A stretch of DNA of 64,000 nt from the NCBI RefSeq assembly GCF_019977735.1, contig NZ_AP025018.1:1488001-1552000 (forward strand), read 5' to 3'. Both the position numbers and the translations under genes were made by a program. Below the pieces are notes generated by a model. The model searched no databases. It was not told the origin of the DNA and was given only the letters and a program-made list of their open reading frames with translations. Numbering within the stretch: position 1 is the first letter of the stretch; the number at the start of each line of letters is the position of its first letter. This DNA is from Calothrix sp. PCC 7716 (GTDB lineage: Bacteria > Cyanobacteriota > Cyanobacteriia > Cyanobacteriales > Nostocaceae). This document shows, piece after piece, positions 1-64,000 of this stretch.

Positions 1-40
1 GCAATCGCATTTAGTTTTATTTTTTACGCATTCCCCTTCC

Positions 41-494
41 CTACCCCTCAGCACATTTTACCAAAGACACGCTAGTATAAGTGTAATTACAGGCTGTAAA
101 CAGACTTTTATACCCAAACCCTGTGTTACCAATGCCTCTAAACGAAATCACCACTAAGATCGCTAGTTTTGTTAGTCCTATTCTCAAGGACAAAATCCAA
201 ATCCAAGATTCAAGTTCAGGCGCCGCAAATCCAATAAAATTGTCTATGTTAGTACAATTTACATATATTTGGTTCATATCGTAACGTAATCAGTAACTGT
301 TCATCAATTTGGTTAATCAATCCTTGACCCGTTCTTCCGTAACTAACTTGTTTATTAGGCTTAAGACCAGGTTTTTGACGAACAGGAGTTTTTCTTACAA
401 ATATACAACCAGGAAAATTTTTATCTAAAAAAGGAATTAATCCTCTAACCTCAGCTTCCCCACCACCTGCAAAAACCCAAACTACCACGGCCAA
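41..494 (-). pseudogene. Broken partner gene of the neighbouring AAA ATPase (Toprim/DUF4276-like, tentative)
   Basis: On the minus strand a TTG start at 494 overlaps the last 13 bases of the ATPase gene and opens a frame that begins with a Gly-rich block (FAGGGEAEVRGLIPFL) and stops at 249. Shortly before that stop a second frame takes over and reads TNIDNFIGFAAPELESWI, after which no family resemblance remains up to a stop at 41. From memory, small cyanobacterial proteins encoded directly behind such ATPases have a similar opening, then an acidic middle part, then a PELE-x-W block. The middle part is missing here, so an internal deletion plus frameshift is inferred. The translational overlap says the two genes once formed one operon. 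The family name is a guess; the broken state is well supported. Confidence 0.5.
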
Positions 495-1777
495 CCTCCA
501 ATACTTGGGTCTCCAACACGGTATAGATCACCTAATTGCCAACCTTGTTCAAGTTTTTCATGCAGCATATGCCTAGAGAGTGGTTTAACAGAAAAATGCG
601 TTTTGTCCTCAGAATAAAAACAAAGAACATTTTCCAAACAATCGGTAAAATAATCTAAAAGGTCAGGACTATGTGTTGCAATAATTACTTGAGTTTTCAC
701 CGCAGCTTTTTTAATCCACTCAGCTAAAATAGGCATCCAAGAAACATGCAAACCTAATTCAGGTTCATCAATTACTAACAAAGATGGCAAAACTGGAGAA
801 TTCAATATAGTCGCCCAGCATAACATTCTAACAGTTCCATCTGACATTTCATTTAGGTAAAAAGGTTCGTTAATACCCTGGAAATACCATTCCACAGTCA
901 AAGACAAGCGACCAGAACGTATCGGTATCAGGCGCCGTGTTTTCGGCAATATAGACTTCATTGCTTTATTAATAACTTCCTCAAAATCAATATCTTGCTG
1001 TATCAAGTTTTCTAAAACTAGTGGCAAATTATCGCCAGATGGAGATAAATATTTATCACTTCCTCCAAGTTTCGGTTCTGCGGTTCTAATTTCATTTAAA
1101 TCCATATTGTTGGCATTATAAAACTGCCACCCAGATATAAATTCTACTAAATCTCTTCTAATTCTATACACAGGTGTATTTTCAGGAGGATACGGGCTAT
1201 ATTCAAGTAGCCTAGGAATTGAGGCTAAACCCAAAGAATTAGAGTGTATATTTTCTAAAGGTTCAAAATGACTTCCTGAATTTTGCCCGTTATTATCGAC
1301 TGATACAATGCCTTTGCCTATTTCCTTATCATGAAATTTATAATAGTATAAAGGTTTTGATGATTCATGTAAGTACTCTCCAGCATACAAAAATTCTTTG
1401 GAAATAGTAACTCTTGGTTGATTTCTAACAACATAAATATTTAAATCCAGTATTCCATTGTCTTTTTCTGAGGTGCCTGTTTGTGAAAGCGAAAAACAAT
1501 ATGCAAATCTAACTACTGCTGGACTTGCCACATTGCCGTCTAAAATTCTGTCTCCGCCAATTTGAGTAATTGAGTTTTCAAAGCTACTAACACCTCGACT
1601 TTCGTCAGGAATAGTCACGAGACTATCTTTTAAAAATTTCAAACAGTTAATAAAATTACTTTTGCCTGAACCGTTTGAACCGATAAATATATTTAGTTTT
1701 GTTAGATTTATTTGTTTATCTAAGAAAAGGTTTTTATAGTTGTCTATCGCTAGAAATTTAAGCAGGGGTTGAGTCAT
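482..1777 (-). CDS. AAA15/AAA21-family ATPase (OLD-like, SMC-type head)
   Basis: A 431-residue P-loop ATPase. Visible are the Walker A motif GSNGSGKS at residues 33-40, a Walker B with following signature (SLLVIDEPELGLH, about residue 355) and a switch region VIIATHSPDLLDYF about 35 residues later. The layout (N-terminal KFLAIDNYKNL strand before Walker A, long insert, C-terminal Walker B and H-loop) is that of AAA15/AAA21 proteins, relatives of OLD-family nucleases and of ATPases in Toprim-containing defence pairs. No nuclease domain is fused here. The 3' end overlaps the start of a second, now broken, gene. Whether this ATPase still has a job alone is unknown; a role in phage or plasmid defence is inference from family and context. 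Confidence 0.8.
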   Translation of the reverse strand: MTQPLLKFLAIDNYKNLFLDKQINLTKLNIFIGSNGSGKSNFINCLKFLKDSLVTIPDESRGVSSFENSITQIGGDRILDGNVASPAVVRFAYCFSLSQTGTSEKDNGILDLNIYVVRNQPRVTISKEFLYAGEYLHESSKPLYYYKFHDKEIGKGIVSVDNNGQNSGSHFEPLENIHSNSLGLASIPRLLEYSPYPPENTPVYRIRRDLVEFISGWQFYNANNMDLNEIRTAEPKLGGSDKYLSPSGDNLPLVLENLIQQDIDFEEVINKAMKSILPKTRRLIPIRSGRLSLTVEWYFQGINEPFYLNEMSDGTVRMLCWATILNSPVLPSLLVIDEPELGLHVSWMPILAEWIKKAAVKTQVIIATHSPDLLDYFTDCLENVLCFYSEDKTHFSVKPLSRHMLHEKLEQGWQLGDLYRVGDPSIGGWPW

Positions 1778-1838
1778 ATTTTTCGGCGCCTTAAATTTTT
1801 GCAGTAATATACGGACAGGCGGGACGCCTATCCTACGG

Positions 1839-6749: not shown

Positions 6750-7760
6750 ATGAACATAGAAAGAGACAATAGATTAGACGCTTTAAAGGCAATTAGCATT
6801 ATTTTTGTCTTAATTTGGCACCTACGCCCTATTAGCTTTTTTGTCAATAACGATACGCATGTAATGATTGTCGTTATTGCTCGAATAGTTCGAGATTTGG
6901 AACTACAACTGTCTTTATTAGCAGTTCCTCTATTTTTCCTTGTTTCCCTTTACTTATTTTTTATCAAAAAGCCAGACAAAAAATATCTAAAAATTAGATT
7001 AATTAAGCTTTTTAAATTATTCACATTCTGGTCTATATTTCATAATATTTTTGTGTGTGCCGTTACTAGAGAAATTCCTAATTTTTCTTGGGATATTATT
7101 ACAGGCTTAAAGCCCAGCTTACCCTTTGCTGGCGATTCTGTATTTTATTTCTTATTTAATTTAATGGTGTTAACTATAGTTAGCTTTTTGTTTTTTCAAA
7201 TTAAGTCAAATAAATTTATTAAATTATTATTCTCTGTAACTATTATATTTTCTTTGCTATACTTTGAGACTGTTGGTATAGCAAATTCTAGTATTCCCTA
7301 TCATTGGCTATCAAATTTTATTGTTTATATTCCAATAGCTTTTTACATTGCTAATTACTCAGATAAAGTATTAAAATTTAGATTTTATTACTTAGTGGCA
7401 TACATTTTATTCTCACTTCATGATATATATTTACGTATTTATGGTTATAACCAAAGTATCTATGGAAGAATTTCGATAGTATGCGGCGCCTTAGCTTTGT
7501 TCTGCTATGTTTACACGCTCAAAATTCCCGAAAATTGGCATATACAAAAATTATCTCAATACTCGCTAGGACTATTTGCGATACATAAATATTGGCAATC
7601 TTTGCTATTTTTGCTAGTTCAACATTATCAAATAAGTTTACTTCCAAGTTTAGTTTATTTAAATATAATGTTTCCTTTAATAGGCGCCTTGGTTGTGTTG
7701 TTAACTATAGTATCTATTTATTTGTTAAAGTCAACTAGTTTGAAGCAGTTTATAGGTTAA
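6750..7760 (+). CDS. Membrane acyltransferase family 3 protein
   Basis: A 336-residue, very hydrophobic protein with about ten membrane helices. The start MNIERDNRLDALKAISIIFV and the catalytic-type histidine in IFVLIWHLRP are hallmarks of acyltransferase family 3 (OafA/WecH-like), enzymes that O-acetylate sugars of surface polysaccharides or peptidoglycan-linked glycans from the cytosolic side. The substrate is unknown. The gene is more AT-rich than its neighbours and sits alone, which fits horizontal transfer. Its last codons (QFIG and stop) are the first unit of a 20-bp tandem repeat. Confidence 0.8.
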   Translation: MNIERDNRLDALKAISIIFVLIWHLRPISFFVNNDTHVMIVVIARIVRDLELQLSLLAVPLFFLVSLYLFFIKKPDKKYLKIRLIKLFKLFTFWSIFHNIFVCAVTREIPNFSWDIITGLKPSLPFAGDSVFYFLFNLMVLTIVSFLFFQIKSNKFIKLLFSVTIIFSLLYFETVGIANSSIPYHWLSNFIVYIPIAFYIANYSDKVLKFRFYYLVAYILFSLHDIYLRIYGYNQSIYGRISIVCGALALFCYVYTLKIPENWHIQKLSQYSLGLFAIHKYWQSLLFLLVQHYQISLLPSLVYLNIMFPLIGALVVLLTIVSIYLLKSTSLKQFIG

Positions 7761-7803
7761 CACAGCAATTTATAGGTTAACACAGCAATTTATAGGTTAA
7801 CAC
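7744..7803. repeat. 20-bp tandem repeat starting inside a gene's last codons
   Basis: Three units of AGCA(G/A)TTTATAGGTTAACAC at 7744, 7764 and 7784. The first unit contains the stop codon (TAA at 7758-7760) of the acyltransferase gene, so the gene end was duplicated outward, probably by replication slippage. The array runs into the palindrome at 7801-7820. Confidence 0.9.
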
Positions 7804-7820
7804 AGGCAGGGATGCCTGTG
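7801..7820. repeat. REP-like palindrome
   Basis: CACAGGCAGGGATGCCTGTG, a 20-base palindrome between two convergent genes. It may help end transcription of both, but there is no T-tract, so it is listed as a repeat. Confidence 0.8.
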
Positions 7821-7826
7821 CTACAA

Positions 7827-10061
7827 TTAAAATTGGATTGGTAGTAATACACCGACACCAAATGTAGTTTCATTGTCAGCGCGAACTCTGAGACTATCAA
7901 AAGGATTTGAGCCGAGGCGATTTGTGAAGTATGCTTCTAATTCTAGACCGTTGATGATATTACCTAAAAGTGAAGATGGATTCCAACGCAAACCTACTGT
8001 CCAAGGAATAACTGATTCACGCTGGTTGCCAATAAAAGCGTTACCGTTATTTTTGAGATTCACACCAACTTCAGCAATTGCATTTAAGTCTTTTGATAAG
8101 GGAAGCGAACCCCCAAAGTTTAATCCGGCAATTTCCCATCCATCACGCTGTATAAAACCTAAAGTTGGGGTTAACCAAACTGCACTTCCTCCCTGAAATT
8201 GGTAGTGCATTGGAGCAGAGATACTATAAACAAATAACTCTCCTTCCCTTTCATTTCTGAAAGCAAATCCACCTTTCTTTAAACCTAACTGCTGAAATCG
8301 GTTACGATTATTATTTACAAAGTTTGTTAAAACGTTATTCGAGCGCGCGATTGTGCCTGCTAAACTTAATGTAAATGGGTTGCCTGACTCTTGGTGCATA
8401 AGACGAACTTTTGTGCTAAAGCCAAATTGCGACTCATCGACTGTACCAGGAATACTACTTAAAAAAGCACCAATTTCTAAATCATCTAATAATCCGTAAC
8501 GAATGTTAGGTAAAAGTCCTTGCCCACCAGCTTGAAAAGTTGTTAATAATTGATTTTTGCGAACTGTACCACCATCTAAAAATCCAAATCCTGCGTATGA
8601 AGAAGGTGCTGGTTGCTGTGTGGCGCCAAAACGCTCAGGATAGCTACGGTTGGCATTTGTAATTCCTGGTAAATAATTAACGCCAAGTCCTATAGCAGTA
8701 TATTCTCTGTCGGCAATTAAAGATAAGGCGCCTGTGTTACCTAAAGCATTAGAAACAAATAAATCTGTAGAAAGTCGAGGATTAATTACATACCTTAAAC
8801 CTGCATTATAAGCAATAGTTTTTGTTACTAATCCAGTATCTCGGTTGATGGTATTATTTCCAGAAAATGGTACAAAAGCATCACCCCAAATTATGAAGCG
8901 ATTACTCAATTTATAACTGATACCAGATGCCAAACCAAAGGTAGTTCCAAAACCTGAGTTAGACCCAGGAAGTTTGTTTAAATATAAGGCATTATCTTCT
9001 GGTAAAAAAGCAACTTTGGGAGACAGAGTAAATTGCCACTGGTCGTTTGGTGTGAAAGTATAAGGCAGTTCTAGAGAAAAAACAGTTTGTTTATTAAGTC
9101 CTGCGACAGAAAGACCAGCATTATCACTAAACCTATATGGACGACCTCCACCTGCTCTTGAAAGTGCAACTACACCACTCAGAGCTTGTGTACCATTTTG
9201 ACTTTGCCAAATTCGTTGTTTTGCTTGCAGCGTAGTTTCTTGAAAAAAGTTAGTAGTGCTTTGTGAGTTAATTCGTTGAACACTAAATTTACCCTGACGA
9301 ACAGGCCCAGAGTTATCTATTGTTTGTACATCTAGAGTCAATTCTAAATTATCGTTAACACCCCAGCTAACACCAATAGTTGGTTGGTCTGTCAAACCAT
9401 CTTTAGCTGCATTTCCAGTTTGGATAAAGCTACGGTTGCGGATAGTTGTTAAAATTTCTCCGCCTCGCAGCTGTTCTGCTGTTGTTAAAACAGGGCGCCG
9501 ACTTGGTATAATCGCAAGCTGATTATTTACAATTGGCGCCGCATCTACCATTGAATTTACTATTTTGAGTAAATCATTAGACTCATCCAGTAATGTAACT
9601 TTATAAAATTGGTTATCTTGCTGCCAAATAAGTTGCGAATCTGGTAGTCCGTTTTGTCCTTGACCTTTTAATAAATATCCCTGAAGATTATTTGCTATAG
9701 CTATCGGTTTGGCAATATTTTGAAATTGTTTAAATTCTTGCAAAGCTTCATCCGAGCTTGTATTTGCTGCACTAAAACTACCAATTAAGCAACTATACTG
9801 CTGCTGTTCACAATCGTAAACATAAACGGTTGAACGAGATTGAGAAGTGCTAAATACTTCAACTGTATAATTTTTGGTATTTTTGCTTAATAAAGTCCCC
9901 GATGGTAAACGCATTCTCAAACCAGACGGTAAATTCTGTTTAATTTTTACAATGTGAGCAGCAAAAATATCGGTATTTGAAGAAGAATTATTTTGAACGT
10001 GGTTTATTTCTGGAGCAGCAAAAGCTAACAAACTATAGGCAGCCAAATTTAACATCGACAT
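7827..10061 (-). CDS. Probable outer-membrane beta-barrel protein, cyanobacterial
   Basis: A 744-residue protein with no family I can name. After a short hydrophobic N-terminus (residues 1-17) comes a region of about 190 residues, then from about residue 210 onward a long series of alternating hydrophobic strands with aromatic ends (e.g. TIGVSWGVNDNLELTLDVQ, YKLSNRFIIWGDAFVPFSG, INPRLSTDLFVSNALG, GLNFGGSLPLSKDLNAIAEV). The chain ends in LPIQF; a terminal phenylalanine on an amphipathic strand is the usual signal of outer-membrane barrels. An export and barrel role is inferred from this; no ligand can be proposed. The signal peptide is weak, and the true start could lie elsewhere. Confidence 0.65.
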   Translation of the reverse strand: MSMLNLAAYSLLAFAAPEINHVQNNSSSNTDIFAAHIVKIKQNLPSGLRMRLPSGTLLSKNTKNYTVEVFSTSQSRSTVYVYDCEQQQYSCLIGSFSAANTSSDEALQEFKQFQNIAKPIAIANNLQGYLLKGQGQNGLPDSQLIWQQDNQFYKVTLLDESNDLLKIVNSMVDAAPIVNNQLAIIPSRRPVLTTAEQLRGGEILTTIRNRSFIQTGNAAKDGLTDQPTIGVSWGVNDNLELTLDVQTIDNSGPVRQGKFSVQRINSQSTTNFFQETTLQAKQRIWQSQNGTQALSGVVALSRAGGGRPYRFSDNAGLSVAGLNKQTVFSLELPYTFTPNDQWQFTLSPKVAFLPEDNALYLNKLPGSNSGFGTTFGLASGISYKLSNRFIIWGDAFVPFSGNNTINRDTGLVTKTIAYNAGLRYVINPRLSTDLFVSNALGNTGALSLIADREYTAIGLGVNYLPGITNANRSYPERFGATQQPAPSSYAGFGFLDGGTVRKNQLLTTFQAGGQGLLPNIRYGLLDDLEIGAFLSSIPGTVDESQFGFSTKVRLMHQESGNPFTLSLAGTIARSNNVLTNFVNNNRNRFQQLGLKKGGFAFRNEREGELFVYSISAPMHYQFQGGSAVWLTPTLGFIQRDGWEIAGLNFGGSLPLSKDLNAIAEVGVNLKNNGNAFIGNQRESVIPWTVGLRWNPSSLLGNIINGLELEAYFTNRLGSNPFDSLRVRADNETTFGVGVLLPIQF

Positions 10062-10491
10062 TAAATTAACCTCGCGTTATCTTCAATATTGCTTTAACAA
10101 CGTAACCAGATAGAATGCGCGACAAAAGCATATATTCTCGCTTTTGATATGAAGCGAGATTGAATAAAAATTCTTTATAGATAGTTGAAAAAGTATGTTT
10201 ATATACTTAAATGCTATCGGTACACCCTTAACAACTTAGAGTCTACTATTATTTCCAGTAATGGATTAATTTAATATGTATCAATGCGTGAAAATAAGTT
10301 TTTAAATTTTCTCAATTAGAAGAAAAATATATATTTAATGAAATGATAGTTATTTTAATTTTGTATCAATTTGAGCTTGATATTTTGTGGGATGATTTTG
10401 TGAGAATGGGCGGGCAGGGATGCCCGCTCCACAAGAGAAATCTACAAGAGAAATCTACAAGAGAAATCTACAAGAGAAATCTACAAGAAGC
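10062..10491. other. Intergenic region with hairpin and 13-bp tandem repeat
   Basis: This 430-base gap holds no gene I can support. It contains the upstream region of the barrel-protein gene (first 250 bases, AT-rich, no clear promoter motif) and, toward the ppx end, a palindrome and a tandem repeat listed separately. Confidence 0.6.
10409..10488. repeat. REP-like palindrome followed by 13-bp tandem repeat
   Basis: The palindrome CGGGCAGGGATGCCCG (10411-10426) is followed by four exact units of CAAGAGAAATCTA from 10432 and a partial fifth. The palindrome's flank CTCCACAAGAG, which is part of the family consensus, supplies the start of the tandem unit, so the array seems to have grown from the edge of the palindrome. 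Confidence 0.85.
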
Positions 10492-12141
10492 TTAAGTGAC
10501 TGTGACTACAGTTGGTTCTAAGATGGGGGAGACTTTGAGATTAAACTCTTGCTCAAACACTTCTTTGCTGTAATCTAAGCTCCAAAGTTCGAGCGCACAA
10601 TCATCACTAGGGTTTGATGGATGAATTCTTAACTTAAGAAGCTTTTCTTGTTGGTTGTAGTCGCAATGAACGCGCGATACTGCTCCAATTTGTCTGCGGT
10701 CAAGGGCAGTTGCTAGACGCAATATAGCACTTAATTGATCTACCATTAAACGATGCTCTTTGTTTACCAAAATGCGGTAGTTTTCATGCTTTTTCTTTGG
10801 TGGAGATTTTCGGTGGTAGCGCGCTATATTGGCGATAATTTCAATTTCGGTTTCGCTGTAACCTAGTAATTCGCTGTTGCGAACTAAGTAGTATGAGTGT
10901 TTATGGTGGGCAGAATGGCTAACGTAGTGACCACAATTATGCAAAATTGCTGCTGACCATAGTAGCTGACGTGTTTCGTTATCCCAGTTGTGTAATATAG
11001 CTTTTGTTTGGTCGAATATACTTGTCGCAAAGTTTGCTACACGGTCGCTATGAGATAAATTAACATGATACTTCTTGGCTGTTTTGAGTACGCTACGTTG
11101 ACGTACCGAACCTTGGTAGCGCAAACGGTCTTCTATTAAACCGTGGGTCAGCATCCAGTCAACAATTACACCTTCACGCAACGAACGTTCACAAACAGTA
11201 ATAGCTTCACATCCTAGCAACGTCATTGCTTCCTGTAAAATAACTGCTCCTGCGAGTATTACTTCTGAACGCTTTTCTGGCATTCCCGGAACTGTTGCCC
11301 GCTCGACGTTGCTCATAGTTTGTAAACGAGCTACTAACTCACGTAAGTCTCGCAATGGAAACTGATAACCGTTGAGCGTTGAAGGAATAAAACCTAAATG
11401 TTCGCGCGCATGAATTGCTGCTAGTGTTTCGATAGTTCCCGCTGTCCCTACTAACCGTGGAGACTCACCCAGTCGTAAGTCTGCTCGTACTTCTTCTACC
11501 GAACGTTCGAGCATTCCTCTTGAATATGCTTGGAGGTAGTCAAACTCTACCGTAGAAATTGGGTCAGTGGTAATTAGTTCACTTGTTAAGCGCACGGCGC
11601 CTATTTTTGTACTAGTAAGAACTCGTTCTTCGTGGCTATCACCCAAAATAATCTCGGTTGAACCACCACCAATATCGATTATCATGTGAGGCTGGTTGTT
11701 AAATTCCATTCCCGACAGCACACCCAAATAAATTCGTCGTGCTTCTTCAGTACCGGATATTAAATCAACCTCTAACGCTAACTCAGTTTCGATTTTGTGT
11801 AAAAAATCTCTACCGTTAGGCGCCTCACGCACAGCAGAAGTTGCGACAGCTATAATCGTTTCGGCGTTGAAGGTTTTCGCAACATCCTGAAACCTCCGCA
11901 GTGCAGCAATTGCCCGCTTCATAACTTCAGGCTTTAAATTACCTGTCTCTAAATCTCGGTCACCAAGTCGAACTGTTTCTTTTTCTCTAGCAATAATGCT
12001 AAATGCTGGTAATGTCGGTTCAATCCGTACAATTACCATGTGCAATGAATTTGTTCCCAAATCAATTGCAGCAATTATCCGTTGTAGGTCAGTTGTTGTT
12101 AATCCAACTGAAAAGCTAGCCGACGTAACTGTATCCACCAT
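10492..12141 (-). CDS. ppx: Ppx/GppA-family exopolyphosphatase
   Basis: A 549-residue member of the ASKHA-fold Ppx/GppA family, which releases phosphate from the ends of polyphosphate or removes phosphate from pppGpp. The N-terminal phosphate-1 motif AAIDLGTNSLHMVIVRIE (about residues 25-42), the phosphate-2 motif IDIGGGSTEIILGD (about 155) and a later GTAGTIETLAAI (about 240) are intact. The C-terminal third is an HD-type domain with AAILHNCGHYVSHSAHHKHS and RYHRKSPP, as in long bacterial Ppx. The length fits two-domain exopolyphosphatases. It is divergent from the prenyltransferase gene with a 250-base gap between them. Confidence 0.92.
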   Translation of the reverse strand: MVDTVTSASFSVGLTTTDLQRIIAAIDLGTNSLHMVIVRIEPTLPAFSIIAREKETVRLGDRDLETGNLKPEVMKRAIAALRRFQDVAKTFNAETIIAVATSAVREAPNGRDFLHKIETELALEVDLISGTEEARRIYLGVLSGMEFNNQPHMIIDIGGGSTEIILGDSHEERVLTSTKIGAVRLTSELITTDPISTVEFDYLQAYSRGMLERSVEEVRADLRLGESPRLVGTAGTIETLAAIHAREHLGFIPSTLNGYQFPLRDLRELVARLQTMSNVERATVPGMPEKRSEVILAGAVILQEAMTLLGCEAITVCERSLREGVIVDWMLTHGLIEDRLRYQGSVRQRSVLKTAKKYHVNLSHSDRVANFATSIFDQTKAILHNWDNETRQLLWSAAILHNCGHYVSHSAHHKHSYYLVRNSELLGYSETEIEIIANIARYHRKSPPKKKHENYRILVNKEHRLMVDQLSAILRLATALDRRQIGAVSRVHCDYNQQEKLLKLRIHPSNPSDDCALELWSLDYSKEVFEQEFNLKVSPILEPTVVTVT

Positions 12142-12226
12142 TTTTAGTTATCTCTATGAACGAACCGCAAGCTTTAAACCAACAAAATATGACATTCACT
12201 TAGCTGCTTATCATCAACACAACCTT

Positions 12227-12292
12227 AGAAACCCGGTTTCTTTGTCATAACTTGTAATAAAAACGACGATGTTGTGTAGAAACCGGGTTTCT
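12227..12292. repeat. Paired AGAAACC-palindrome element
   Basis: Two 15-base arms, AGAAACCCGGTTTCT at 12227-12241 and AGAAACCGGGTTTCT at 12278-12292, are reverse complements of each other and each nearly palindromic. They flank a 36-base core containing TTGTAATAAAAACGAC. The same element occurs at 44248, 47754 (compound) and 63898. It lies in the ppx/ubiA divergent promoter region. Confidence 0.9.
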
Positions 12293-12394
12293 TTAAAACC
12301 ATTGTTGATGAATCATCTTAATCAATAGCAAAAAAAGTTATCCTGTAAATGTGAAGATGTATTAAATATTGTTTGCAATTCATTTTTCCTGTTC

Positions 12395-13276
12395 ATGCTA
12401 AAGTCACTCGAAAACCACCAAAACACGGCTGTTGCCGTAATTCAGCTTTTGAGGTGGCACAAACCCGAAGGAAGATTAATCTTAATGATTCCTGCCTTGT
12501 GGGCTGTATTCCTAGCAGCAGCGGGAAAACCTCCACTACCTTTAGTTGGCGTCATTGTGCTTGGCACCCTTGCTACTAGTGCTGCTGGTTGTGTAATTAA
12601 TGATTTATGGGATAGAAACATTGACCCAGAAGTTGAGCGCACTAAAAACCGTCCTCTAGCTTCACGCGCGCTTTCTGTAAAAGTTGGTATCGCTGTTGCT
12701 ATTATTTCTTTTGTTTGTGCGGCAGGTCTGGCTTTTTATCTTAACCCACTCTCATTTTGGTTGTGTGTTGCTGCCGTTCCAGTTATTGTTCTTTACCCAG
12801 GCGCCAAAAGAGTATTTCCCGTTCCACAATTGGTACTATCCATTGCTTGGGGTTTTGCCGTTTTAATTAGTTGGAGCGCTGTTACAAAAAATATAATGCA
12901 GCCGACTTGGTTATTATGGGGCGCCACTGTACTATGGACTTTAGGGTTCGATACTGTATACGCGATGAGCGATAGAGAAGACGATAAACGTATTGGAGTT
13001 AATTCCAGCGCTTTATTTTTCGGCGCCTATGCCCCCATTGCAATTGGTCTTTTTTACATTGGTACTGTTGCTCTGCTTGGCTGGTTAGGTTTTACTATTC
13101 ACCTTCATATTGCTTTCTGGTTAAGTCTTGCACTTGCTGCACTTGGCTGGGCTTGGCAATTAATGCGTCTAAAAGATGACAGTCTCACTAGTATAGCATA
13201 TGCTGAAATGTTTAAGCAAAATGTTTGGATAGGATTTATTTTGCTTGCAGGCATGATAGCTGGTAATTTGTTATGA
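12395..13276 (+). CDS. ubiA: 4-hydroxybenzoate solanesyltransferase (UbiA family, plastoquinone pathway)
   Basis: A 293-residue integral membrane prenyltransferase with eight or nine helices. The first Asp-rich motif NDLWDRNID (residues 69-77) binds the Mg-prenyl diphosphate, and the second loop has YAMSDREDDKRIGVNSSA. In cyanobacteria the UbiA homologue attaches a solanesyl chain to 4-hydroxybenzoate on the way to plastoquinone-9. The opening HKPEGRLILMIPALWAV is typical of 4-hydroxybenzoate-type rather than homogentisate- or chlorophyll-type enzymes. It is followed 17 bp downstream by the CRR6 gene, so the two are probably co-transcribed. Confidence 0.88.
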   Translation: MLKSLENHQNTAVAVIQLLRWHKPEGRLILMIPALWAVFLAAAGKPPLPLVGVIVLGTLATSAAGCVINDLWDRNIDPEVERTKNRPLASRALSVKVGIAVAIISFVCAAGLAFYLNPLSFWLCVAAVPVIVLYPGAKRVFPVPQLVLSIAWGFAVLISWSAVTKNIMQPTWLLWGATVLWTLGFDTVYAMSDREDDKRIGVNSSALFFGAYAPIAIGLFYIGTVALLGWLGFTIHLHIAFWLSLALAALGWAWQLMRLKDDSLTSIAYAEMFKQNVWIGFILLAGMIAGNLL

Positions 13277-13293
13277 AAAGCGCGAGAAAGTAA

Positions 13294-13764
13294 ATGTCAA
13301 CTACAATTACAGTAAATATTGACCAAATTAATACTCTAGACATTTCAGCCGCTGTTGAGGTAATAGAACAAATTAGTTCAAAAAACGCAATTCTGTCAAA
13401 CGAGCAGCAGCTAATTTTCAATATTGACTATCCAAGGGAAGACGGAGACCCACGCGAACTTTCAGAAATACCCGAAATTCGTTTATGGTTTGTTCGTTTA
13501 GATACACGTTACCCGTGGCTACCATTTTTTTTAAATTGGCAAGAAAAAGAATTTACTCGCTATGCGGCAATGTTAGTACCGCACCAATTCACAAAAGAAG
13601 GAATACAATACAACCCAGAAGCACTAGAAATATTCTTGATGAGCAAGATTTTCATTTTAACCGACTGGCTTAAAAAACAAGAAATACCCCACCAATCTAG
13701 ACTTAAAGCAATGGCGCAGTTATTAGGATATGACCTAGAAGATGGTCTGTTTTCAATGTTTTAA
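13294..13764 (+). CDS. CRR6-like NdhI maturation factor (DUF1817)
   Basis: A 156-residue soluble protein with the conserved cyanobacterial/plastid block NIDYPREDGDPRELSEIPE followed by IRLWFVRLDTRYPWLPFFL, then AAMLVPHQFTKEGIQYNPEA and a C-terminal LLGYDLEDGLF. This matches the CRR6/DUF1817 family, whose cyanobacterial and chloroplast members help assemble the NdhI subunit of the photosynthetic NDH-1 complex. The identification is from memory of the family pattern. It follows the prenyltransferase gene closely (17 bp) in the same direction and is followed by a hairpin that may end the transcript. Confidence 0.8.
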   Translation: MSTTITVNIDQINTLDISAAVEVIEQISSKNAILSNEQQLIFNIDYPREDGDPRELSEIPEIRLWFVRLDTRYPWLPFFLNWQEKEFTRYAAMLVPHQFTKEGIQYNPEALEIFLMSKIFILTDWLKKQEIPHQSRLKAMAQLLGYDLEDGLFSMF

Positions 13765-13769
13765 TCGTT

Positions 13770-13797
13770 GTAGAGACGCGATAAATCGCGTCTCTAC
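13770..13797. terminator. GTAGAGACGCGAT hairpin between convergent genes
   Basis: Perfect 13-base arms GTAGAGACGCGAT / ATCGCGTCTCTAC with a two-base centre, placed 5 bases after the CRR6 stop and before the stop of the convergent gene. The sequence belongs to an interspersed hairpin family known from many Nostocales; it lacks a strong T-run, so termination is plausible rather than sure. Confidence 0.6.
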
Positions 13798-13807
13798 GTT
13801 ATTTAAT

Positions 13808-14560
13808 TTATGCGATGCGACTTAAGGCACTATTAAAAGCATATTCAACAGCTTTTGATTCGCTTGGTAATAAAGCTTGCCAAATACGATAATCATTTAA
13901 ATCTAAGATTAGATTAGCCATATCATCAATTTTAACTTGTCTGAGAATTTCGTGCTGCATGTACTCAAATTCAAGAGAGTTACCACCCGCTTCTAGAATA
14001 GATGTAGCAGCTTGAATAAATTTTTTCATAACCGCTTGCATATATTTTTCACCTGCGGTTTCGGCGAAAATTGATGAGGTATGAAGTACTTGATACTCTT
14101 TATATAATAAATTAGAAATTTTTCTACCTTCAGTATTATTCCAGCCTAATGGCAATTGAACATCAAGATACTTACCTTCTTGATAGCGATACTCAAGGTA
14201 CTGATTGATGTTGATTGCTTCTTGAGCGAGTTTATCACCTGCTAAAAGTCGATAGAGCGGTTTTAGACTTGTGTCAATTGCAGAGTCCGGGAATACATTT
14301 TCTTGACCTTCTGGACATTCATATAACATGTAAGTCCATATTCCAGGATGCTCTACTTGCGCTTTATCTGCTTGATAGAAGGTAACTGTACCATCTTCTT
14401 CACAATAATAATAAGCGTTATGAATATCATTAAGGCTACATCTACGTAATTTAATCCACTCCGTGATTTTTTTGAATATGCCAGTGATATGAAGTGGTTG
14501 GCTGTCAACTTGGATGTATCGTTTTCCGGTAATAACAAAGTTATGTAATTTAATCGCCAT
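13808..14560 (-). CDS. Hypothetical protein, cyanobacterial
   Basis: A 250-residue soluble protein I cannot place. It opens MAIKLHNFVITGKRYIQVD, has a region rich in aromatic residues (AYYYCEEDGTVTFYQAD; WTYMLYECPEGQ) and ends in a helical part (about 165-250: YMQAVMKKFIQAATSILEAGG, MANLILDLNDYRIWQALLPS). There is no signal peptide or membrane helix. A CCCCTTGAGAA stretch upstream (plus-strand view, about 14570) gives a plausible Shine-Dalgarno on the minus strand (AAGGGG) at suitable spacing. It is convergent with CRR6 and preceded by a long gap. Confidence 0.6.
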   Translation of the reverse strand: MAIKLHNFVITGKRYIQVDSQPLHITGIFKKITEWIKLRRCSLNDIHNAYYYCEEDGTVTFYQADKAQVEHPGIWTYMLYECPEGQENVFPDSAIDTSLKPLYRLLAGDKLAQEAININQYLEYRYQEGKYLDVQLPLGWNNTEGRKISNLLYKEYQVLHTSSIFAETAGEKYMQAVMKKFIQAATSILEAGGNSLEFEYMQHEILRQVKIDDMANLILDLNDYRIWQALLPSESKAVEYAFNSALSRIA

Positions 14561-15812
14561 TATATTGTCCCCTTGAGAATATTAAATCTATCAGTAGACG
14601 CACGCCAATCACTTTTAATTTGGTTAATCAGCTATTCAACCCATACATCTCCTTTTAGGAATATTCCAGTTTATCTAATTATCTATCTTTAGATAGATGT
14701 CGTGTGGATTCAATCTGGATAATCTGTCAATTGTTAAATGGTATACTTGACAAACTAGGGTTGAAAATAGAAACACAATGTTAATTCAGATAACAATGTG
14801 TAGAGACTGACTTTGTATTCGCCTCTAATTTCAGTCCTATATAGTGTTCCCAAACAGTTGCCGAAACTAACAGATTAATTAAAAAAATTTCTATTTTTTG
14901 GGATGATGCAGCTGAAACCCTTACGGTATAAGCTTTTTAAACTCAATGTTAGTGCCATGTTTTACAATTACTACTTATGTAAGTAAGCTAACAGGCGCCT
15001 TGATGCTACAAAGAGTTGATATACATGAACTCTCTAACACGAAAGAAACCTATGAAGCTGATAACAACTTGATGCACTAACCTCAGAACCAAAACCTTCG
15101 TTGAAAGATTAATATATTACTTAGCTCTACTCTGACTTGTACAGAGGGGTAAGACCACTCATTTTAATTTTTAGGTATTATAAATTACAATCATCACAAA
15201 CTTTCGACTTGCTACTGTAATGTTACGCAACGCACTTGATTATGAGCATTAGAATATCTTATGCTCAGTCAACTACAATACATAAAAGTTACTTGACTCG
15301 CAATCGAAGAATATTTAATACCTATATAAAAGTCTGCCAAAATATAAATACAAACATACAGCTTCAATTCCTGAAAGTTTCTTTAATTGGTCGAAATCAC
15401 CCTAAGAAGGTATTTGAGGTACCAGCATCAAATACAATTCGATATTCAATCAACTCTCGCCAACTTAGCTTTAATTAACCGAATTTAAAAATTTACTGTT
15501 AACTTAGTTTGTAACTTGATTAAAGAAAATTCAAGTAGTGGCAATATACTTTTTATCCCACATAACCAAATATCAGTCTTTAGGTATAGACTTATCTTTC
15601 CTCAAGCAGTTGTAGTTAGCTTTATTTCTCTTCATAAAATTAAATCAAATATTAACTCAAAAGAAAATATTAAACTGTTTGCTTAACTACAACAAGCCAG
15701 TTATCTGGTTTTTAAAGAGATAAATATTTTAAATGACTAGAGGTTGTAAACAAAAATATTAAATAATGTAATTTGTATCAAGGCAGACTAGTTTGCCTGC
15801 CTATAGAACTAA
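14561..15812. other. Long intergenic region without a supported gene
   Basis: A 1.25-kb AT-rich stretch between two minus-strand genes. One 80-codon plus-strand frame (15236-15478) has no recognizable family, poor codon pattern and no Shine-Dalgarno, and is not called. A single GGCGCC (14993) and a short inverted GGCAGAC/TTTGCCTGCC near 15783-15802 are the only structured items seen. It could hold regulatory RNA or a decayed gene; nothing decisive is visible. Confidence 0.5.
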
Positions 15813-16769: not shown

Positions 16770-16894
16770 AATTATTTTTTAGGCTCTTAGGGCTACTCGC
16801 TAATCATTCTATTAGTTGTTTGCTGCTAATGGTAACTTCAGCAGTGATTAGGCATTATATTGAGTATTCTTGTTTTATTTGAATTTTATTAACT

Positions 16895-17587: not shown

Positions 17588-17657
17588 ATACCCTTGACGC
17601 TACCAGTATATAATGGTAAAATCCGTGCCACTCACTTGTTATTTGTCTTGAAAGCCA

Positions 17658-20168: not shown

Positions 20169-20170
20169 GC

Positions 20171-59465: not shown

Positions 59466-59801
59466 ATGCTGAATCATCTCGTTGCTCACACTGATGCTCA
59501 TGATTTAAGAGCGCGTTTAGAATGGGGACAACCCGGTCTGACAATTGTGGATGTTCGCGACCGTTTTACCTACAACCACGGTCACATTACAGGCGCCATG
59601 CCAATGCCTATTGGTGACTTGCCGAACCGCGCGAAAGCTAGTTTACACCAAAAACGTGATATTTATGTTTACGGTGAAAACGACGAACAAACTGCTCATG
59701 CAGCACAATTACTCCGCGATGCTGGATTTATACACGTCTCTGAAATTATTGGTGGTTTGAGCGCTTGGCAAACTGCTGGTGGAGCAGTAGAAGGCGTATA
59801 A
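59466..59801 (+). CDS. Rhodanese-like protein without catalytic cysteine
   Basis: A 111-residue single-domain rhodanese fold: LTIVDVRDRFTYNHGHITGA, MPMPIGDLPN and LLRDAGFIHVSEIIGGLSAW. The active loop, normally VVYC-x5-R, is DIYVYGENDEQT here, with Gly70 in place of the Cys, so it cannot transfer sulfur. Cyanobacterial relatives of this type share the loss, as far as I recall; a binding or regulatory role is likely. It lies alone. Confidence 0.85.
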   Translation: MLNHLVAHTDAHDLRARLEWGQPGLTIVDVRDRFTYNHGHITGAMPMPIGDLPNRAKASLHQKRDIYVYGENDEQTAHAAQLLRDAGFIHVSEIIGGLSAWQTAGGAVEGV

Positions 59802-59974
59802 TATTATTACATTTTCATTGGTAGTTGTTTTTTCAATGTACTGCACAGTGTGCAGTACAATTTTTGCCGTATATAATTAAAAATTAAGATTTTTAAAGTT
59901 TTCTCATTGAAAAAGCTATTTTATGCTTAATTTTAAACACATAACTGAGTCTAAGCTATACTTGAAAATAGAAA

Positions 59975-60274
59975 ATGCATGTTATAAGTTATCGGCGTTT
60001 AAGAGAATATTGTGAAAAGCACGCTGATTGTTGTGATGCTCTTGATGACTGGTATAAAGCTGCTATGAAGGCAGACTGGTCAAATTTGCTACAAGTGCAA
60101 TCTGTTTTTCCTTATTCAGAAGCAGTTGGTAATTTTACTGTTTTTAATATTAAAGGTAATAAATATCGTTTAATTGTAAGCATAGATTATGAAAAACAAG
60201 TAATTTACGTAAAATATGTCCTTACCCATGCTGAATATGATAAGGAAAAGTGGAAGAATGACCCTTACTTTTGA
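59975..60274 (+). CDS. higB: HigB-type toxin
   Basis: A 99-residue protein of the RelE/HigB superfamily: VISYRRLREYCEKHADCCDA, WYKAAMKADWSNLLQVQSVF, FNIKGNKYRLIVSIDYEKQV and VKYVLTHAEYDKEKW. HigB-type toxins of this class cut mRNA on the ribosome. The reading frame is intact. The antitoxin gene overlaps its last 17 bases, in the toxin-first order normal for higBA. Confidence 0.88.
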   Translation: MHVISYRRLREYCEKHADCCDALDDWYKAAMKADWSNLLQVQSVFPYSEAVGNFTVFNIKGNKYRLIVSIDYEKQVIYVKYVLTHAEYDKEKWKNDPYF

Positions 60275-60659
60275 CCAAAAGAGATATCAAGAATTACTGA
60301 TGAAATATCAACCGAAGCTCATTAGAAACGAAGAAGAGAATGAAAAAGCTTTAGCTATTGTCGAAGAATTAATGCATCGTAAAAATAGAACCTTAGAAGA
60401 AAATGAGCTTTACGATTTACTAATTACTTTAATTGAAAAATTTGAGCAAGAATATTACTCTCCTGGTAAAGCTTCTACTCCTCATTCGATGCTACTTTTT
60501 TTAATGGAACAACAAAATATTCAGCAATCAGCTTTAGTTGATATTATTGGTTCCAATGATATTGTTTCTCAAATTGTTGATGCAAAGCAAGAAATTACTA
60601 AAGAACAAGCTAAAGCTTTAGGAAAATTCTTTCACGTAGACCCCAGCTTATTTATGTAG
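60258..60659 (+). CDS. higA: HigA-type antitoxin
   Basis: A 133-residue protein. The ATG at 60258 (MTLTFDQKRYQELLMKYQPK) is chosen over an in-frame ATG 42 bases upstream because the family motif begins there. An N-terminal helical part (EEENEKALAIVEELM) precedes a helix-turn-helix (about 85-130, LLFLMEQQNIQQSALVDIIG, KQEITKEQAKALGKFFHVDP). It neutralizes the toxin and should repress the operon. Overlap by 17 bases with higB couples translation. A paralogue without HigB is at 35435. Confidence 0.88.
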   Translation: MTLTFDQKRYQELLMKYQPKLIRNEEENEKALAIVEELMHRKNRTLEENELYDLLITLIEKFEQEYYSPGKASTPHSMLLFLMEQQNIQQSALVDIIGSNDIVSQIVDAKQEITKEQAKALGKFFHVDPSLFM

Positions 60660-60691
60660 ATATTTGAAATACGCGCGTATGGTGGGCATTG

Positions 60692-60870
60692 CTAGCCCTG
60701 TCAAGGTGAGCATGGGTACTAACCATTTATAAGGGTTTTAGCCTTTCACTGATTAAAATTTGAAAGCAAAAAATAATATTTGCGCTCAATTTTATATTCC
60801 AGAGTTGGGGGTACAACGTAAGAATAAGGCTTTTATCTAGTACTGTATTGGTACACCTTGACAGGGCTAG
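60692..60870. mobile_element. 179-bp MITE with perfect 17-bp terminal repeats
   Basis: Ends CTAGCCCTGTCAAGGTG (60692-60708) and its exact reverse complement (60854-60870). The flanks show a 10-base direct repeat, GTGGGCATTG, before the left end and after the right end. Removing the element and one copy restores the perfect palindrome GGTGGGCATTGCCCACC, a member of the family at 43531. The interior is AT-rich and codes for nothing. It is a non-autonomous transposon moved by a transposase encoded elsewhere. Confidence 0.9.
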
Positions 60871-60914
60871 GTGGGCATTGCCCACCATACAGATTTGTTT
60901 GTATAGACCTCTTT

Positions 60915-61952
60915 TTATGGTATGGGTACTAATACAGGTGGAGTATTGAGTATTCCATTTAATAGGGATGCGGGACGTTGACCGTAGGGCCAAGCGAAAG
61001 CGTGTTTAAATGCAGCATCTTGACAAGCTTGTAATTGTTGGAAGTTAATGATGTCGTAGGTTAACAAGTTTTCATACTCAAACGGTAAGCGCACGTTATG
61101 TAGTCCTGCGTTATCCGTACAAATTGCAATATCCACCCCCGCTTCAAAACAACGGTCAAACACTGTTTTTAATTGACGAATATCTTCTAATGTACCCGTT
61201 TTAATGTATGTGGTTGGACAAACTTCTAAACATTGTCCACGCTGTGCGAGTTCAGGTAATAACTCAGGATGTAGCAAAGGAACTTGAATCCCGTGTCCGA
61301 TACGCATTAAACAAGGTAATAGTTCTGGATAACAACCTGCTGTTGTTTCATATAGATGTCCAGTAGTTTTCACGGATAATGACAGCGCATAGTTATAAAG
61401 TTGTATCCACTCTTCTAACCTTTCTGCGTAGTAACTATCTCCTCCTGCTACATCTACCCCACATACGAAGTTTTTGTTTTCTGCTGCCAGGTCAACTATC
61501 GCTTTATTTACTTCATATGGTAAACGTGCGTGCATACACAATATTTGACTTGTGACAATCGGATACTCTGGTATTTGACTCGCTTTACCCACTACCTCAA
61601 CTATTTCTCTCATTTTGTCAATTCGTTCTGATTGACTCAGGTGTTCGGGTGTGCGTAGATAGGGAGTATAACGCAATTCTAAGTACGCCAGATTTTCAAA
61701 TATATAGGCGCCTCTCAATAAGCGATAAATAAAATAAGGGAGAGTTTCTACAGTTTGAACACTTTCGACTAATGTGTGTAATTCCAAATATTCATCCAGG
61801 GTATTACGAGGCTTTGTATAAAATTCTTCAAATGTTGAGTAATCATTAAAGCGGGATACCATATCCTCGGAATGACGCTGGAAATATCTCCATAGTACGC
61901 GAGGTACTACCGAACCTCCCAAATGCCGATGCAATTCCGCATATAATGCCAT
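60915..61952 (-). CDS. Adenosine deaminase-family protein
   Basis: A 345-residue metal-dependent deaminase. The first zinc motif H-x-H is ELHRHLGGS (His8, His10). Next are the catalytic pair in TTGHLYETTAG (His and Glu, as in H-x-x-E), the His in MRIGHGIQVPLLHPELL and ICTDNAGLHN, where the usual Asp-Asp has become Asp-Asn. The first Asp (zinc ligand) is kept. Thus it can bind metal, but substrate preference may differ from adenosine. CLEVCPTTYIKTG is typical. Cytosolic; purine salvage or a related amidohydrolase reaction is likely. Confidence 0.8.
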   Translation of the reverse strand: MALYAELHRHLGGSVVPRVLWRYFQRHSEDMVSRFNDYSTFEEFYTKPRNTLDEYLELHTLVESVQTVETLPYFIYRLLRGAYIFENLAYLELRYTPYLRTPEHLSQSERIDKMREIVEVVGKASQIPEYPIVTSQILCMHARLPYEVNKAIVDLAAENKNFVCGVDVAGGDSYYAERLEEWIQLYNYALSLSVKTTGHLYETTAGCYPELLPCLMRIGHGIQVPLLHPELLPELAQRGQCLEVCPTTYIKTGTLEDIRQLKTVFDRCFEAGVDIAICTDNAGLHNVRLPFEYENLLTYDIINFQQLQACQDAAFKHAFAWPYGQRPASLLNGILNTPPVLVPIP

Positions 61953-62042
61953 AATGCCACTTTTTTATATAAATTTTATTAATCTTAACAAGAACAAATC
62001 TAAAAAGTAATCTGTACGCAGAATAATTTTTTATTTAGAGAC

Positions 62043-63803
62043 TTACTGCACAGGCAAGATGCCTGTGCCACAAGAGCTTGTTAGCTGTGTTGGTAAAATG
62101 TGTGTGGAAGTGGTTTTAGTTACAGGTAAATAGACTTTGAAGCAAGTACCTTCACCGACTTTGCTATGAACGTCAATGAACCCACCATGATTTTTGATGA
62201 TGCTTTTTGTCGTCGAAAGTCCTAAACCAGTTCCTTTGCCAACTTCTTTGGTAGTGAAAAATGGTTCAAAGATATGCTCTAAATTAGATGCTGGTATCCC
62301 AATTCCAGTATCTGTGACTGTGATAATAACAAAATTAGTCTCGGTGTCGGCGCCGTTCAAATGTAAAGTTAATTTACCACCCTGTGGCATTGCATCTCGT
62401 GCGTTGACAACCAAGTTCATCAAGACTTGGTGTATTTGAGTAGTATTTCCCATCACACAGCCTAAATATGGAGATACACTGATTTGACAGGTAATAGATT
62501 TAGGAAATGTTTGGGTGATGAAAAGCTCGACATCGCTAAATACAGCTTTCAAGTCAATAAGAGTTTGTTTATCAACACCACGAGCAAATAATAATATCTG
62601 TTTAATTAGGTTTGCTCCACGTTTGACATTGTTTTCTAGCGTCGTTAGCAAAGAATTATATTCGTTGTTAGGCAATTTCATTCGTAATAACTGTGCTGAC
62701 AACAGAATTGGAGAAAGCACGTTATTCAAGTCATGAGCAATACCACCAGCATTTGAACCAATAGTGTCGAGACGTTGGAAACGTAACAGTGTAGAAAATA
62801 TTTGCTTTTCTTCGGTAATGTCACGTGTCACCGATAAATTCAGAAAACTCCCATCTTCGCAACTCAACGGAACTGCGTGTGTTTTTACCCAACGACGTGT
62901 CCCTTGAACGTTAATCTCAAATTCTAATGTTCCTGCGTTTCCTCTACATACACTTTCATGCAATGCTGCAAATGCACGATAGTACTCACGCTCTACTCTT
63001 GTATCAACTCGTTTGCCAAGTAGCTCGTTTGCACTTAAAGCTTTCATCATTTTGATTCCATTCGCATTTATCTCCAATAGCGTTGCGTCGGGAGCAATTA
63101 ACTCTACACACTCACTTGCATCCATCAATGCTTGTAAACGATTCTCACACGAAGCTAACTTTCGTTCTGTCACCTGTAAATGCATTAAGGCACTTCGCAG
63201 TAGCAAATAGAATAGTACTACTAACCCGACACTCCCAAATGTGGCAATCGAAAAAGTTGTTATTGTATGAACAAAGCTGATTTGCGAAGCTTTGATAACT
63301 GTTTGAAGCTTTTTAGACTCGTTTGCTTTGATTTTCTCAAACAATTGTTGAATATCACGAGTCAAAACCTCTGTTGATAACAATTCTTGATTTTTATTAC
63401 CGTTTATTTGGCTTTCAAACAGATTCAAACTATTAGTAATTTTGTCTTGAAGTAAATTTATATACTTGTTATCATTTGCGTAGCTAAAGATGGTATCAAG
63501 CTGTTTAAGACTTGTATTCGTTTGCTCAACTCCAACAGTATAATCTGATAGATAATTTTGATTATTTGTGACTAAGTAAGTTTGAAAAGATATTTGAGTA
63601 TTATTAAACTCCCAAAGCGTTCGTTCGAGTTGACTAATAACCTGTAAAGCTTGGTTTACTGAATGTTGATGATAAATGAGTTGAAATGTATTACTGTAAA
63701 AAATTATGGCATTAATCACGACGACTGAAGCCGCTACCACAAAAACAGTCGTCAGTTTTTTCAGTCTAGACAACTTCTTCATGCGTCCCTTGATATTCAA
63801 CAA
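62043..63803 (-). CDS. Membrane sensor histidine kinase with PAS domain
   Basis: A 586-residue kinase. Two membrane helices (about 19-38 and 183-203) enclose a helical periplasmic sensor of about 140 residues (CHASE3-like), then a PAS/PAC domain (about 222-335, with [20 protein letters not shown]), a HisKA-like helix with [20 protein letters not shown] (His in AHD) and HATPase_c ([42 protein letters not shown]). The HDLNN variant is typical of kinases with a PAS sensor and stand-alone regulators. The C-terminus GTGILPVQ is encoded by the palindrome at 62048. A downstream Met (MKKLSR, residue 8) could be the true start. Confidence 0.9.
62048..62068. repeat. REP-like palindrome inside the kinase gene's last codons
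   Basis: GCACAGGCAAG / ATGCCTGTGC, the family of 6660. Read on the minus strand it supplies the kinase's C-terminal residues GTGILPVQ and leads into the stop at 62043. Confidence 0.85.
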
Positions 63804-63897
63804 GCGATGACCTTGACTGCTGATGTTCCCGATTCAGGGAAGATAACAATAGCTACTTCTTTATGGCTTTTGCTGTATCAAGTTACTCAAAGTTTAT

Positions 63898-64000
63898 AGA
63901 AACCGGGTTTCTTTTTGAGATGTTGTAATAAAAACGACAACTTTACATAGAAACCCGGTTTCTTTAATTTTGAATGGCGCCGAAGTTAGAAACCGGGTTT
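63898..64000. repeat. Paired AGAAACC-palindrome element, third arm cut by window edge
   Basis: Arms at 63898-63912 (AGAAACCGGGTTTCT) and 63949-63963 (AGAAACCCGGTTTCT) around a core with TTGTAATAAAAACGAC; another arm begins at 63988 and runs off the window. A GGCGCC lies between the second and third arm. Confidence 0.9.

Follow-up and report, generated by a model that had tools for sequence, protein, structure and literature searches.

The palindrome GGCGCC recurs throughout a 64,000-base stretch of the Calothrix sp. PCC 7716 genome (G000:C1:1488001-1552000, hereafter the window, taken whole; the source genome, G000, has 12,367,066 bases) and stands there in place of HIP1, GCGATCGC, the usual highly iterated palindrome (HIP) of cyanobacteria. 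The same replacement is found in all seven genomes of the genus that were surveyed. We consider it likely that GGCGCC is the alternate HIP of this genus, bound up with an exchange of DNA methyltransferases, methylation of its third base, a selection-like upkeep of its sites and a functional role. Selection on HIP1 was reportedly the subject of a study in 2018. What purpose highly iterated palindromes serve in cyanobacteria has been called a mystery (Elhai, 2015, PMC4390886; here and below, the portion of that text that was consulted).

A direct count gives 112 GGCGCC in the window at a mean spacing of 574 bp. An earlier reading made from the letters alone (the sequence-only reading) had estimated about 112 at a spacing near 570 bp, with three to four expected and an excess of about 30-fold. 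In line with those estimates, we obtain expectations of 3.3 from base composition, 5.5 from a first-order and 4.8 from a second-order Markov model, corresponding to excesses of roughly 34-, 20- and 23-fold. No palindromic hexamer of the window is more over-represented, the next being CGCGCG at 2.9 times expectation, and no clear extension beyond the six bases appears in flank counts. Genome-wide there are 20,380 GGCGCC (1648 per Mb), the gross over-representation of a GC-rich palindrome by which alternate HIPs are recognized (Elhai, 2015). The genome is also low in HIP1, as alternate-HIP genomes are, and has none of the abundance of an HIP1 genome: neither GCGATCGC nor CGATCG occurs in the window, and GCGATCGC occurs 66 times in 12.4 Mb, about as often as its reversed control (64). 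HIP1 is thus missing from the window as claimed, and its replacement by GGCGCC is supported across the whole genome; neither a genome-wide count near expectation nor abundant HIP1 outside the window, the two outcomes the sequence-only reading had named against itself, was observed. GATC is depleted as well, with 12 occurrences in the window against about 144–147 expected, and with 0.26–0.86 per kb in six genus samples against 2.2–2.3 per kb in G009 and G049. GGCC is likewise avoided in the window (16 against 77–112 expected), and palindromic hexamers with no occurrence there include CTCGAG, CGTACG, CCATGG, ACGCGT and AGGCCT.

The reversed word CCGCGG, intended as a control for GGCGCC, occurs only seven times in the 12.4 Mb genome. 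A C5 methylase at G000:C4:85294-86436 (L011) adjoins an RE_Eco29kI enzyme, and we take the specificity of Eco29kI-type restriction systems to be CCGCGG; the word is probably suppressed in G000 because the genome carries such a system. As this control is not neutral, we relied on the Markov expectations for the GGCGCC excess.

The replacement extends across the genus. Besides G000, the seven genomes are Calothrix PCC 7103 (G127), Dulcicalothrix desertica PCC 7102 (G138), Calothrix NIES-4105 (G115), Calothrix C42_A2020_038 (G101), Calothrix FI2-JRJ7 (G030) and Calothrix HK-06 (G076), and the survey of the family took in 138 further genomes outside the genus, 145 in all. Every genus member carries 7475–20,380 GGCGCC (1150–1711 per Mb) and 31–163 HIP1 (3.6–22.6 per Mb), the latter being close to what chance would give. 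Outside the genus GGCGCC runs from 0 to 1053 per genome, the highest count being that of G089, which has 1270 reversed controls too, and none of the 138 has a GGCGCC HIP; HIP1 occurs at least 990 times in 136 of them, the exceptions being G082 (30) and G022 (535). Five of the six congeners diverge from G000 by 6 to 16% in alignable DNA, and presumably the alternate HIP was already present at the base of the genus and has been kept ever since. Alternate HIPs have been described as sporadic and as not persisting (Elhai, 2015, in part), a description that the presence of GGCGCC in seven of seven diverged genomes does not fit.

Among the HIP1 sites listed for two genus members, some are clustered, with eight in about 8 kb (G127:C7:654281-661928) and seven in about 11 kb (G138:C7:24674-35253); these are perhaps recent imports from HIP1 relatives. 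The HIP1-poor G022 (L252, L253), from another genus of the family, has a genome of 10.7 Mb; a 40 kb sample of it contains 0.075 GATC per kb and shows no replacing palindrome among its top words, although a methylase of the P0004 type described below is present. G022 may be an HIP1 genome on the way to losing this palindrome.

GGCGCC occupies all reading frames and non-coding DNA, with the Gly-Ala frame favored. In 400 kb of G000 there are 696 sites, 598 of them inside called open reading frames (ORFs), where the first base falls at codon positions one, two and three 341, 146 and 111 times; the density is 1.87 per kb in coding and 1.23 per kb in non-coding DNA. The proposal that the word is common simply through codon and amino-acid use, GGC GCC being Gly-Ala, finds support in the 341 of 598 coding sites that lie in that frame. 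It is refuted as the main cause, and retains almost no probability, in view of the other two frames, the non-coding density and the conservation of silent fourfold-degenerate bases within the motif described below. The sequence-only reading had likewise placed the word in genes, gaps and all frames and had set coding aside as an explanation, as we find.

We next consider spacing, which bears on how the sites are read. Beyond about 40 bp the 696 sites are randomly spaced, with a coefficient of variation (CV) of 0.99 and a variance/mean ratio of 0.96 in 5 kb bins. Below that distance sites repel each other, as if a nearby second site brought no gain: gaps of 6–40 bp number 16 against 39.5 expected in G000, 10 against 30.8 in G115 and 11 against 29.5 in G127, with 0 against 6.4 in the window, although the control for this deficit consists of just 12 other hexamers, no more being sufficiently frequent. 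HIP1 offers no common rule here, with 18 short gaps against 3.8 expected in G009 and 0 against 1.6 in G049.

These results can be set against the model of Elhai (2015, PMC4390886, in part), in which mismatch repair directed by G-m5C (m5C, 5-methylcytosine) creates and fixes methylated GC sites up to about one per 1000 bp, making HIPs a by-product of biased mutation for which no function is needed. This model accounts for the tie to a methyltransferase and for the density of sites, and the methylated base that it requires is the one modified by M.BsaHI, consistent with the decay pattern described below. Taken alone, the window also leans toward mismatch-repair saturation and away from the 400-kb result, its sites being somewhat more even than random (variance/mean 0.69 in 5 kb bins, CV 0.88, p 0.08; largest gap, p 0.03). 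If sites saturated within 1 kb, however, their spacing should be regular, whereas the 696 sites are random beyond about 40 bp; nor does the model readily explain why the constraint stops precisely at six bases. The non-persistence it attributes to alternate HIPs misfits their presence in all seven genus genomes, and a second methylase copy, which according to Elhai may have been critical, was not found in two genus members, as detailed below. We therefore regard the model as an unlikely account of GGCGCC in this genus.

Comparison with relatives shows that GGCGCC is maintained. We aligned 400 kb of G000 around the methylase gene P0001 (see below) with G127, G138, G030, G115 and G101, giving 258,822, 215,177, 141,533, 109,268 and 22,706 aligned bases, respectively. 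G000 sites were intact in 365 of 462, 350 of 385, 208 of 248, 177 of 211 and 25 of 42 cases, compared with 62, 72, 71, 58 and 40% for other all-G/C hexamers and 69, 74, 72, 49 and 37% for all hexamers. Among hexamers with 60 or more cases, GGCGCC ranked 1st of 261 by conservation in G115, 2nd of 1298 in G138, 15th of 543 in G030 and 81st of 1674 in G127. At fourfold-degenerate positions, motif bases one and two differed in 19/421, 11/332, 9/207 and 16/197 cases (G127, G138, G030 and G115), against 2108/7953, 1437/6463, 961/4356 and 1483/3402 outside the motif. The resulting ratios of 0.17, 0.15, 0.20 and 0.19 amount to five to seven times less divergence inside the motif. This drop is confined to the six bases, the directly flanking ones being at or slightly above background. 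GGCGCC sites are thus kept base by base beyond what the protein requires; a comparison of sites between close relatives was among the checks that the sequence-only reading had proposed.

The ratio of 0.17 translates into a selection-like coefficient, in scaled units, of about 2.9, for which an equilibrium model of a simple kind predicts an enrichment of about 18-fold; the six genus samples show 26- to 49-fold, which fits in order of magnitude. To polarize changes, G115 served as the outgroup and agreement of two or three other genomes was required. Motif loss per branch was 0.065 against 0.077 for all hexamers, and 0.075 against 0.053 with G030 added, on 20 and 22 losses only; the motif rate is not always the lower one because of losses at position 3. 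The four set-ups yielded only 1, 1, 11 and 8 polarized gains, numbers too small to support a spectrum of gains.

Between species, selection and a fixation bias stemming from gene conversion or DNA uptake would look alike. Under such a drive, GGCGCC-bearing DNA would be preferentially taken up or copied and its alleles would spread like uptake sequences, giving the same motif-limited constraint and near-random spacing. It also agrees with the fact that words one letter away are not swept as a class, their total observed/expected ratio being 0.71–0.87 across six genus samples, compared with 0.67 and 0.75 for two HIP1 genomes. Six bases, with no clear extension, are short for a DNA uptake sequence, and a drive of this kind leaves the methyltransferase swap unexplained; we rate it as quite improbable. 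An argument that one-letter neighbors act as a sink for conversion was dropped: the strong depletion that they seemed to show in the window mostly vanished once the sample was enlarged, counts were masked and two HIP1 genomes were used for comparison.

Sites that decay do so mainly at the third base. Of the single-letter differences from GGCGCC, GGTGCC/GGCACC make up 49/73, 19/25, 25/29 and 9/17 in G127, G138, G030 and G115 (102/144 in total, all against one shared reference), and polarized losses go to these words in 12/20, 16/22, 19/34 and 37/68 cases in four overlapping set-ups. Fourfold-degenerate sites show more C>T at motif position 3 than G>A at the first two motif positions (p 1e-8 in G127, 0.002 in G030, 0.02 in G138). 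Fourfold CpG cytosines outside the motif are no more divergent than other cytosines, so the C>T excess is a feature of the motif. This is the pattern expected if 5-methylcytosine at the third base were deaminating, and M.BsaHI methylates this central C of GRCGYC (PMC2413257, in part). GRCGYC is also listed as an m5C motif of Haemophilus influenzae Rd (PMC8565308, in part), which plays no role in our argument. Judged from substitutions, the genus probably marks GGCGCC by DNA methylation.

A methylated cytosine with C/T traffic at position 3 would also be a substrate for very-short-patch (Vsr) repair, which might over-correct the T of deaminated m5C to C and so create GGCGCC. No Vsr family match was found at E 0.001 in the 145 family genomes, the seven of the genus included, by a search whose control was positive in 5 of 14 known genomes. 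Nor are GGTGCC/GGCACC depleted in the genus: they are raised (1.21–1.80), compared with 1.12 and 0.43 in two HIP1 genomes. We consider this origin very improbable.

We turn finally to the methyltransferases that accompany the two palindromes. A C5 methylase from the HIP1-rich relative G009 (P0004), used as a query at E ≤ 1e-60, brought out the METHYLTRANSFERASE swap: 131 of the 138 family genomes outside the genus have a match, including a few at only 41–55% identity and about 30 matched stretches with an in-frame stop, against 0 of 7 inside. Because it is near-universal in HIP1 genomes, we take P0004 to be the m5C CGATCG enzyme of DmtC type; the genus would then be without the methyltransferase characteristic of HIP1. 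A fragment of a broken C5 methylase of G000 (P0003) was also considered as the lost HIP1 enzyme and rejected, being sporadic (39 of 145 genomes). Two C5 methylase genes of G000 appear broken, namely L010/L014 (G000:C1:297588-298231) and L008/L016 (G000:C2:308900-309777), the latter related to P0001.

P0001 itself is a C5 methylase by family match, encoded on the minus strand at G000:C1:10950497-10951489. It is present in all seven genus genomes, at 83–92% identity in the other six, and adjoins a RuBisCO-like gene at six of the seven loci. Homologues at 55–73% identity occur in 37 of the 138 genomes outside the genus, and at 17 of the 23 outside loci examined (L024-L046) the neighboring ORF belongs to the RE_HindVP family (PF09519; Pfam match E 8.8e-156 for a representative ORF from L036). 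Of these ORFs, several appear split or truncated (L025, L028, L029, L034, L039). WGKNQF is found in 17 of the 17 and SPERRFD in 14, both being motifs of BsaHI-type (GRCGYC) restriction enzymes (PMC2413257, in part). According to the same source, GRCGYC methylases have an Arg 11 residues before a TL pair, followed by Gly/Ala. P0001 and most listed homologues follow this rule with RR[AG]IFSIDEPSPTI, in which we count the Gly/Ala at −10 and the paper places it nine upstream. The neighbors of its homologues thus suggest that P0001 is of GRCGYC (BsaHI/HindVP) type, the predicted methyltransferase that would go with an alternate HIP.

In the genus this methylase appears to stand without a restriction partner. 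No RE_HindVP ORF lies beside P0001 within 1.5 kb flanks at any of the seven loci, six of which were also viewed with 5 kb flanks, and tblastn with four restriction enzymes as queries left no trace in about 2.2 Mb of genus DNA, made up of partly overlapping loci and including the P0001 loci of all seven genomes. The same search recovered the restriction gene at 18 of the 23 outside loci, adding L027. The orphan cytosine methyltransferase that the sequence-only reading had suggested looking for therefore has a candidate of fitting type, solitary in the genus loci searched. Outside the genus, the median GGCGCC count is 0.66 per Mb in the 17 genomes with an RE_HindVP ORF and 4.0 per Mb among the 101 non-carriers (p 0.0002, uncorrected for phylogeny). 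In the six P0001 carriers without this ORF it is 27 per Mb (range 0.5 to 42.6), the lowest being G045, which has a tblastn trace. A second P0001 copy, about 60% identical, was not found at E 1e-50 in G101 or G138, where GGCGCC reaches 1150 and 1701 per Mb; a second copy is thus not needed to keep the HIP.

Together, these observations suggest the following course of events. An ancestor of the genus would have lost its HIP1/CGATCG m5C methyltransferase together with its HIP1 sites, GATC being strongly avoided, while keeping a GRCGYC (BsaHI/HindVP)-type m5C methyltransferase minus the restriction enzyme. The retained enzyme would methylate the third base, GG(m5C)GCC, and deamination would convert sites to GGTGCC. 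A selection-like bias with a scaled strength of about 3 would keep and regain sites, to roughly one per 600 bp. In the least certain step, methylated GGCGCC may have taken over the job of methylated HIP1, its sites serving as recognition marks for a putative reader and not just resulting from a bias in mutation.

Besides the evenness of the window's own sites and the shared footprint of biased fixation, several results weigh against this account. The reciprocal comparison gives GGTGCC/GGCACC in 57 of 106 differences, and the C>T excess at position 3 is not significant in G115, the most distant of the four genomes (p 0.33). At fourfold sites, C>T at position 3 is also less frequent than C>T in the background beyond the motif (40/324 versus 1315/7953 in G127), so that relaxed reading of GGTGCC by a reader would fit too. 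The search for the restriction gene covered only part of each genus genome. Four genomes of one other genus (G021, G070, G096, G112) have P0001 homologues with no RE_HindVP trace in 1.5 kb flanks, yet retain abundant HIP1 (three of the four with a P0004 match) and have no GGCGCC HIP, and seven family genomes outside the genus retain HIP1 with no P0004 match; neither event alone is therefore enough. One clade also represents one evolutionary event, and the association of methyltransferase and motif is accordingly not independent.

More broadly, and tentatively, the identity of a HIP may be set by whichever solitary m5C methyltransferase is kept, an alternate HIP being a stable, selectively kept trait of a genus whose sites are read individually, contrary to mismatch-repair saturation. 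The exact six-base constraint, the random spacing beyond 40 bp and the repulsion below it would mean individual reading. With both palindrome and methyltransferase exchanged, and with members that can be compared in alignments at each site, this genus lends itself to testing how methylation, mutation and the maintenance of such sites are linked.

The sequence-only reading had called a genome built on GGCGCC a striking variant. It was right about the kind of replacement and not about its novelty, as an earlier report had already assigned GGCGCC to Calothrix PCC 7103 and Calothrix D253 as their alternate HIP; in PCC 7103, HIP1 is almost absent, GATC is at 16% of expectation and there are two GRCGYC methyltransferases (Elhai, 2015, PMC4390886, in part). 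In the portion of that text consulted and in our literature searches we did not find the persistence across the genus, the absence of the presumed CGATCG methylase from seven of seven genomes, the apparently orphan GRCGYC-type methylase, the silent-site constraint or the C-to-T decay at the third base. Our searches of the literature, on GGCGCC in Calothrix or together with cyanobacterial methyltransferases and on GRCGYC methyltransferases, returned no other paper on a GGCGCC HIP, most subscription journals being outside their reach.

The 112 GGCGCC of the window start at positions 219, 931, 1785, 1875, 2113, 2191, 2430, 2999, 3341, 4038, 4103, 4532, 4892, 4978, 5420, 6268, 6388, 7485, 7683, 8622, 8727, 9494, 9535, 11596, 11819, 12800, 12920, 13022, 14994, 15930, 16011, 16072, 16691, 17126, 17204, 17910, 19761, 19819, 20082, 20577, 20749, 21325, 22331, 23993, 24167, 24277, 24458, 25079, 26755, 26838, 28757, 29005, 29590, 29661, 30316, 30415, 30567, 31023, 32281, 32559, 33344, 33499, 33987, 35287, 35589, 36007, 36692, 37288, 37669, 37909, 39720, 40066, 40168, 40737, 40975, 42158, 42758, 43389, 43706, 44012, 45339, 45396, 45732, 45984, 46703, 47237, 47688, 48089, 49728, 50265, 50439, 51374, 51911, 52978, 53472, 53930, 54355, 54754, 55082, 56048, 56280, 56368, 56539, 56951, 57597, 58109, 58817, 58897, 59592, 61707, 62349 and 63976. 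The closest pair spans 9494..9540, with starts 41 bp apart (the minimum gap), and the longest GGCGCC-free interval between neighbors lies within 59592..61712 (2115 bp, the maximum gap); neither feature has a strand.

Elsewhere in the phylum (386 genomes surveyed), other GGCGCC-dense genomes mostly have high reversed-control counts and look GC-rich; of these or their kin, G212, G350 and G158 were sampled. G212, with 9489 GGCGCC, was rejected as a case of the same phenomenon: it is GC-rich (54% in a 61 kb sample), AGCGCC/CGGCGC words are on top and GGCGCC is at 2.9 times expectation. G350, from another family of the order (L201-L204), has 2493 GGCGCC against 38 reversed controls in 6.2 Mb; in a 26 kb sample CGATCG ranks first among its hexamers, and GGCGCC reaches only 1.3 times its expected count. 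In another genus, a GGCGCC-rich region of G132 (G132:C4:78-96 kb) was considered as an import from the genus of G000 and rejected: it is an element of 52% GC that has 11 sites over 18 kb and lacks GGCGCC among its top words.

GGCGCC can be compared with several known systems. The DNA uptake sequences of Neisseria and Haemophilus occur about once per kb and are kept by biased fixation; they are longer than GGCGCC, are not palindromic and have no link to a methyltransferase. GGCGCC resembles them in density, and is shorter and palindromic. With HIP1 it shares a GC-rich palindromic form, a density of roughly one per kb and an attached m5C methyltransferase, whereas its sequence is another one without a GATC core, HIP1 itself being at chance level in G000. 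The BsaHI/HgiDI/HindVP (GRCGYC) restriction-modification systems are connected to it through the P0001 homologues of family relatives that adjoin RE_HindVP enzymes; unlike in those systems, no restriction gene was seen beside P0001 in the genus, and one target word is hugely enriched rather than avoided. The closest likeness is to the alternate HIP of Calothrix PCC 7103 and D253 (PMC4390886, in part), which has the same word at a similar density, near absence of HIP1, depletion of GATC and a GRCGYC-type methyltransferase. G000 is another genome of that same genus, to which the site constraint, the decay and the second-copy test are added here.

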